From: Arcticibacter pallidicorallinus
GTDB taxonomy: Bacteria > Bacteroidota > Bacteroidia > Sphingobacteriales > Sphingobacteriaceae
Assembly: GCF_003002875.1 (NCBI RefSeq)
Contig: NZ_PVTH01000001.1
Location: forward strand, 1 to 64,000
Direction of reading: 5' to 3'
Length of the DNA: 64,000 bases
Position numbers and translations under genes: made by a program. Each line of letters opens with the position of its first letter. The first letter of the stretch is position 1. Below are positions 44,998 to 45,342 of the stretch, in pieces. The notes under the pieces are model-generated. The model was not told the DNA's origin. It saw only the letters and a list, made by a program, of their open reading frames with translations, and did not search any database.

Positions 44998-45094
44998 CCT
45001 TTTGTCCATATGGTCCCTGCCCATGAATTTTTAGTGCGATAAGAGGAGCAACGCCTTGCAGGGGTGGTTTAATGATCTATTGAAAGCGTATTAA

Positions 45095-45216
45095 AAAGGA
45101 AAGCCGCTACTGTGCAGTATCGGCCCCTTATCAACAAACTCAAACTCAAAACAAACTTTTTCTCTTATACTCAGATTGCTGGCTGAAGTATAAGCTTTTA
45201 ATCCTCTCAATGATTA
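45095..45216 (-). ncRNA. Candidate small structured RNA
   Basis: On the minus strand, an exact -7 element (45222-45229) is followed by about 120 nt with no usable reading frame. It contains an 11-bp hairpin with one bulge (45164-45174 with 45183-45194), then a linker with repeated GTTTGAGTTT units, then a GC-rich hairpin at 45103-45124 followed by TTTCCTTTTT. Promoter, stem-loop and terminator in this order are the layout of a bacterial small RNA. A decayed mRNA leader is the alternative. No known RNA family was recognised. Confidence 0.45.
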
Positions 45217-45221
45217 TACAA

Positions 45222-45229
45222 CAAAGGTA
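45222..45229 (-). promoter_or_regulatory. -7 promoter element of the candidate small RNA
   Basis: Read on the minus strand, TACCTTTG matches TAnnTTTG exactly. The expected -33 position has no TTTG; a palindromic operator begins 22 nt upstream of the -7 element instead. This is the arrangement of an activator-dependent promoter. Confidence 0.5.
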
Positions 45230-45250: not shown

Positions 45251-45266
45251 AATGACCGGGGTCATT
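45251..45266. promoter_or_regulatory. Perfect palindromic operator-like site
   Basis: AATGACCGGGGTCATT is a 7-2-7 perfect inverted repeat. On the minus strand it is centred about 44 nt upstream of the predicted small-RNA start. It is about 84 nt upstream of the rpsU promoter -33 element on the other strand. It probably binds a dimeric regulator. Confidence 0.55.
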
Positions 45267-45342
45267 TATGACTGAGATTGAAATCATATTTCGTAAGATT
45301 AGCGGAGATGAATTTCGACGTCTGATTATTTGCAGATCAATG

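Follow-up and report, generated by a model that had tools for sequence, protein, structure and literature searches.

A candidate low-oxygen-induced small RNA gene next to apt in Arcticibacter, with FnrS-like logic

Enterobacteriaceae and Neisseria are known to have small RNAs (sRNAs) driven by FNR (PMC3032703). FnrS of E. coli and its relatives, together with its gonococcal analogue, is like the unit analysed here a small intergenic RNA behind a class II FNR-type site at about -41.5, and its regulon mates are likewise genes of anaerobic metabolism such as pflB (PMC3032703, PMC10993149, PMC3688515). Gonococcal FnrS also sets a precedent for the layout, i.e. a 5' stem, an unstructured middle, an intrinsic terminator and a class II FNR site (PMC3032703). 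According to PMC3688515, FNR sites at activated E. coli promoters mostly lie near -41.5 and have the consensus TTGATnnnnATCAA, and similar boxes are ascribed to members of the CRP/FNR family (PMC8510549). In Bacteroidota, GibS of Bacteroides thetaiotaomicron shares with the present unit the trans-encoded location, a single-stranded conserved seed and an intrinsic terminator, and it pairs at start codons (PMC7366714). Rfp18 and other Rfp RNAs of Flavobacterium psychrophilum are also intergenic Bacteroidota sRNAs, Rfp18 being widely conserved in its genus (PMC9723704). Finally, the FixL/FixK circuit of Alphaproteobacteria combines a haem-PAS kinase, a CRP-type activator and a TTGA-type palindrome, all of which have likenesses here (PMC4999443). 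Among the matches listed in the literature, with most subscription journals outside scope, there was no FNR- or FixK-driven sRNA in Bacteroidota.

The Arcticibacter sRNA differs from FnrS in having no Rfam match, a TAnnTTTG-type promoter, a second box at about -63.5 and a host from a different phylum; moreover, the regulator proposed for it is a receiver-CRP fusion partnered by a FixL-like kinase, and its targets are only putative. GibS is induced by certain sugars and carries its seed at the 5' end, while the core found here adjoins the terminator; this likeness is drawn from the published description (PMC7366714). The Rfp RNAs, also compared by description, belong to another genus, and the main text of their report does not name Fnr or Crp (PMC9723704). 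Unlike in FixL/FixK, receiver and CRP output are joined in one protein here, and boxes of this type also stand in front of an sRNA.

The transcription unit between apt and rpsU

The unit lies in a window of 64,000 nt, the whole stretch of Arcticibacter pallidicorallinus DNA that was analysed. A sequence-only reading had placed a complete sRNA transcription unit in the gap between apt and rpsU, and its figure of 655 nt from the apt stop to the rpsU start proved correct. The features are as follows.

45093..45217, minus strand: sRNA gene with a transcript predicted at about 125 nt; unit present in all six genus genomes
45222..45229, minus strand: -7 element TACCTTTG of the Bacteroidota TAnnTTTG type, from sequence
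45253..45264, minus strand: proximal CRP/FNR-type box TGACCCCGGTCA, TGA-N6-TCA, spacing 36-37 in 6 of 6 genomes
45275..45286, minus strand: distal box-like element TGATTTCAATCT, an imperfect palindrome 22 nt from the proximal box in all six genomes
45164..45194, minus strand: 5' hairpin of 11 bp with one bulged base, -8.8 kcal/mol; helix not kept in all genomes
45127..45156, minus strand: G/U-rich core/linker GTTTGTTTTGAGTTTGAGTTTGTTGATAAG with GTTTTGAGTTTGAGTTTG within; proposed seed, from conservation
45103..45124, minus strand: terminator hairpin GCCG-A-TACT-GCAC-AGTA-G-CGGC; covarying inner pairs
45093..45102, minus strand: T-rich terminator tail TTTCCTTTTT, from sequence

Read along the minus strand, TGATTTCAATCT is followed by TGACCCCGGTCA, TACCTTTG, a predicted start at about 45217 (+/- 2, reckoned from the position of the -7 element), the bulged hairpin, the linker, the GC hairpin and TTTCCTTTTT. 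The -7 element, the 11-bp bulged hairpin, the repeat-bearing linker and the GC hairpin with its T tail were all found on this strand as previously claimed. The gene is convergent with apt, i.e. antisense and downstream of it, in all six genus genomes. An antisense role towards apt was considered and dropped; the 3' end of the sRNA falls about 340 nt short of the apt stop in the window. Between 44866 and 45034, two short overlapping frames lie 3' of apt (MIGQDTIASVINSQRDTFIKERYGF.. and ..RDVLEKIPFQIRIFTKDN), which by reading look like what is left of the N-terminal part of a larger, decayed gene, perhaps for an AAA ATPase.

Each element taken singly is weak evidence. When the gap was dinucleotide-shuffled 20,000 times, 31% of the shuffles carried a minus-strand TAnnTTTG, and the box WTGAYCNNNGTCAW alone occurs at 19 places in the window's own genome, 13 of them inside an ORF, so that the box by itself is mostly background. 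The fold of the whole RNA from this genome was hardly distinctive (z = -1.22; 29 of 200 shuffles equally stable), and a generic terminator scan returned 0 sites at the locus, probably due to the internal mismatch in the stem. Box and -7 element as a pair were found on the minus strand in 2 of 20,000 gap shuffles, and it is the rarity of this pair together with conservation in all six genus genomes that lifts the case above chance.

The upstream boxes, which the sequence-only reading had missed, say most about function. In every genome of the genus, 36-37 nt separate the centre of TGA-N6-TCA from the end of the -7 element (37 nt in the window); counted from the inferred start site, this puts the proximal box at about -41.5, the predicted class II position, so that all six have the site characteristic of an FNR-type activated sRNA. 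A second, imperfect box, TGA(T/C)N4ATCT, is located 22 nt upstream of the proximal one, again in all six, and by the same reckoning it would occupy a class I position at about -63.5. We regard it as highly likely that the sRNA is under an activator of the CRP/FNR type. Elsewhere in the same genome, an intergenic palindrome ATGACATGGGTCAT precedes a gene that by reading encodes a UspA-like universal stress protein (L083 1501-1514, G000:C11).

Conservation in the genus and distribution beyond it

Six genus genomes were compared, G000 (the window's own) to G005. BLAST with the region gave matches in three of the six, those in two relatives covering core and terminator only. When apt was located in all six genomes and its far side was read, the sRNA unit was present in each of them. 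The predicted transcripts are about 100-145 nt long and consist of a variable 5' part, a G/U-rich core directly 5' of the terminator, and the intrinsic terminator itself. The core reads TTTGAGTTTGAGTTTGTTGATAAG in G000, G002 and G004 and TTTTGAGTTAGTTTGGTTGATGA in G001, G003 and G005, and the -7 element is TACTTTTG in G002 and G004 and CATTTTTG, off by one base, in G001, G003 and G005.

Identity was profiled per 25 nt for the close pairs G001/G005 and G002/G004. Core and terminator were the most alike (0.96-1.0), followed by boxes and promoter (0.76-0.96); one stretch of the 5' part fell to 0.60, and sequence outside the unit gave 0.40-0.65. When G000 was compared with G002 or G005, the core alone stood out (0.92 and 0.70, respectively); support for the window thus comes from core, boxes and layout rather than from overall identity. 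The terminator hairpin pairs in all six genomes. In both G000 and G002/G004 an outer GC stem is separated by one mismatch from an inner stem of 4 bp, which is closed by a 4-nt loop. Each of the four inner pairs has different bases on both sides between G000 and G002/G004, with complementarity kept; in the other clade, G003 and G005 differ by one double-sided change and one G-U. As for the 5' part, chosen segments were more stable than shuffles in G000 (z -1.9), G004 (-2.6) and G005 (-3.4), and those chosen from G001, G002 and G003 were no more stable than shuffles. Compensatory changes, which the sequence-only reading had named as a sign of support for both stems, were therefore seen in the terminator stem, while no common 5' stem was found.

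In G002 and G004, rpsU is located on other contigs and another gene follows, but boxes and sRNA still adjoin apt. This indicates that the boxes belong with the sRNA and not with rpsU, and a role of the box in serving rpsU was dropped accordingly.

No Rfam family reached its gathering score with the sRNA. FnrS is a family in Rfam, and it was not among the four chance-level matches returned at E up to 10. A profile built from the six copies and run against 251 family genomes matched strongly six times (E <= 9.4e-24) and weakly 26 times. None of the 24 weak loci inspected had box, -7 element and core together, but two (L104, L111) held a partial core string and two others (L098, L103) a box with a -7 element at 37, leading by reading into protein genes. 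Across one genome per species from 84,980 species, the core pattern was found in 32 stretches, four of which had box and -7 element; these four are apparently G004, G002, G003 and G001. In the 980 nt downstream of apt from 24 genomes outside the genus (41 genomes were searched, 10 of them having no apt match at the cut-off), neither a box/TAnnTTTG pair nor a core string was present, a survey blind to units located elsewhere or with altered -7 and core. Hence, within reach of the six-copy profile, the sRNA was found in one genus only and not across Sphingobacteriaceae, where the earlier proposal had suggested searching.

Overall, synteny, promoter, conserved core and covarying terminator agree on the predicted transcript, which bears out the previously claimed complete unit. 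A stand-alone small-RNA transcription unit between apt and rpsU is well supported by these sequence comparisons: it has the marks of an intergenic sRNA, i.e. a predicted promoter of its own, no conserved ORF, a putative terminator and conservation as RNA. We are thus nearly certain that it is a real sRNA gene limited to the genus.

The box-promoter regulon and its candidate regulators

The strict pattern TGAYN4RTCA-N23-TAnnTTTG matched 37 times in the six genus genomes, compared with 3 matches of the reversed pattern used as control. The window's own sRNA copy is the only one to fit the strict pattern; the others have N22 or CATTTTTG. Thirty of the 37 loci were read. For the family scans a single copy of each gene was used; for pflB and the transporter, it was taken from G000 and cut to its first 200 residues. 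A box-promoter unit precedes pflB, encoding pyruvate formate-lyase, in all six genomes, a lactate/formate-type MFS transporter (OFA/L-lactate-type) in five, and hypA followed by hypB in G003. Five of the six also have the box in front of a gene for a cysteine-rich protein of 64-66 aa with two Cys-pair motifs (L180, L163, L172, L174, L176), for which the one copy scanned (L180) gave no Pfam match. One site in G000 leads into a cytochrome c gene; less telling loci comprise, by reading, Rpn-like ORFs, a YoaK-like membrane protein, a TolC-like protein, a response regulator and an exonuclease-like ORF. Since pflB, the transporter and hypA stand under like units, the signal of the sRNA promoter is likely to be low oxygen.

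A second short terminator-ended sRNA unit was detected in G000, G002 and G004 (L073, L152 and L173). In L073 it spans 1502-1602, i.e. G000:C2:313482-313582, on the plus strand. Its TGAYN4RTCA lies 37 nt from the end of TAnnTTTG, and the transcript of about 55-65 nt would contain the common TTGAAAGGAA and a GC hairpin with a T run, before any ORF.

In 31 family genomes the strict pattern gave 79 matches and the control 7. Scanned examples include hemH (ferrochelatase) and heavy-metal P-ATPases, CcoI-like by reading. Of 26 loci read outside the genus, one (L248) had a terminator before an ORF, and it was unconvincing.

In the window's own genome, the Crp HTH family matched at four places. L205 is a receiver-cNMP-HTH (receiver-CRP) fusion, L206 and L207 are described below and as a further Crp-type protein, respectively, and L208 is by reading a different kind of protein. 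The fusion L205 lies in a row consisting of a PAS histidine kinase, L205, a 158-aa ORF and hemN (L355 2319-6492, G000:C2), with ccoG and fixH, genes of cbb3-oxidase maturation, beyond hemN on the other strand; the proximity of cbb3 maturation genes to the kinase/fusion pair is a further likeness to the FixL/FixK circuit. The kinase has PAS, HisKA and HATPase_c domains. Its PAS domain matched FixL haem domains, presumably those of B. japonicum, at 1.2e-31 with the SRHD segment aligned, and we take the histidine of this segment to be the haem ligand in FixL. Against NCBIfam FixL the kinase scores 170, well short of the cut-off of 850, and we therefore call it FixL-like and not FixL proper. In alignment, the recognition helix of L205 reads ETVSR where E. 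coli FNR has ETISR. If this reading is right, kinase and L205 form a candidate oxygen-sensing pair in which the roles of FixJ and FixK would be united in one protein. The 158-aa ORF is 2-hydroxyacid-dehydrogenase-like, and in another genome (G029, L245) a box-promoter unit precedes an ORF that by reading resembles it. The L355 stretch itself contained one box only, no more than chance.

L206 has cysteines at 4, 8, 13 and 16 and the helix ETVFR; one of its cysteines aligns with an E. coli FNR cysteine, which we take to be that at position 122, and L205 has that cysteine too. L205 is our preferred candidate for the protein that binds the box, ahead of L206 and L207.

Mode of action and alternative explanations

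We propose that the locus encodes a low-oxygen-induced, trans-acting, base-pairing sRNA that follows FnrS-like logic without a sequence match, and we put the probability of this reading at roughly 0.7. A TAnnTTTG-type promoter is preceded by two boxes of the CRP/FNR type, one at about -41.5 and the other at about -63.5. At low oxygen, an activator of the CRP/FNR superfamily, most likely the receiver-CRP fusion with its FixL-like kinase, would bind these boxes and recruit RNA polymerase, as may also occur at pflB. This would lead to expression of the transcript of about 100-145 nt with its variable 5' part, G/U-rich core and terminator, and the core might then pair with A/C-rich sequence near the starts of mRNAs unneeded without oxygen and so block their translation. 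Bacteroidota mRNAs are described as lacking Shine-Dalgarno sequences (PMC6847099), so repression by an RNA covering the start region, as with GibS, would make sense.

Action by base pairing is the part of the proposal that we hold less firmly, though we still lean towards it. The core is unpaired when folded alone. At minimum energy, the G000 RNA as a whole lacks the 5' hairpin and its 5' part pairs with the linker/core, leaving the core partly paired, and the proposed seed would be hidden; in the centroid fold the 5' hairpin is retained and the core is open. The core complement AACTCAAAACAAA was not enriched (107 matches vs 106 in the control), and of the 107 distinct sites read, 13 were near a start codon by the reader's rule. 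Mean duplex energies of the real cores at start regions fell within the range of shuffled cores in three genomes with partial gene sets. The start region of icd (isocitrate dehydrogenase) has 12 consecutive bases complementary to the core in G000. It ranked first of 86 start regions there, where icd came from that very search, and its orthologues, followed by synteny, ranked 6th of 57 in G005 and 14th of 47 in G001, each set being part of a genome. As a target, icd is thus a lead only, not significant and no standout in the two relatives.

An RNA that pairs with no mRNA and instead titrates a protein, like the CsrA-titrating RNAs, or serves a structural role would account for the missing pairing signal in the target tests, and the repeated GUUUGAGUUUG in the core of G000, G002 and G004 could be its binding motif. 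G001, G003 and G005 have fewer repeats by reading, and no Rfam relative was found, so this explanation appears improbable to us; we know of no RNA-binding protein matching the repeated motif. It is scarcely credible that the locus instead makes a small peptide at low oxygen. The TTG-started 39-codon frame (45210-45091) which crosses the G000 unit could encode one, and G001 and G005 have in common a 12-residue open ATG frame that enters the terminator. Yet neither G000 nor G004 has an ATG in the unit, no frame is common to the six genomes, and core copies differ by frame-breaking indels. The previous description of the transcript as having no start codon that could open a useful frame stands for ATG but overlooks the TTG-started frame.

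The signal could also be other than oxygen, with a real sRNA under a CRP/FNR-family activator that responds, for example, to nitric oxide or nitrite (a DNR/HcpR-like protein or L206). The HcpR-type box TTGACnnnnGTCAA and the FNR/DNR box given above both fit TGAYnnnnRTCA (PMC1274295), and L206 is close to an ORF named by reading as Rieske NirD-like. Nevertheless, the recognised regulon comprises pflB, the transporter and hypA, no hcp- or nor-like gene was seen in the 30 of 37 loci read (part of them scanned), and it is L205 that combines an FNR-like recognition helix with a FixL-like partner; a non-oxygen signal is therefore unlikely, if the least implausible of these alternatives. Least probable of all, to a degree that we would practically discount it, is a chance layout of decayed intergenic sequence giving no transcript. 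Although every element alone is common or weak, such a layout is hard to reconcile with synteny in six of six genomes, a sharp-edged conserved block in the close pairs, a covarying terminator and a fixed box spacing.

A more far-reaching version of the low-oxygen sRNA proposal would see here an independently evolved low-oxygen RNA arm, in which the FixL-like kinase and the receiver-CRP protein drive both sRNAs as a Bacteroidota counterpart of FnrS and the core pairs with A/C-rich starts such as that of icd. We offer this version tentatively and consider it rather doubtful as a whole. If the low-oxygen sRNA is confirmed, the regulatory logic of FnrS would have a second origin, in a phylum whose promoter differs and where, according to PMC7366714, Hfq and ProQ are not obvious, at least in Bacteroides. 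A concrete RNA, promoter and regulator would then become testable in named strains.
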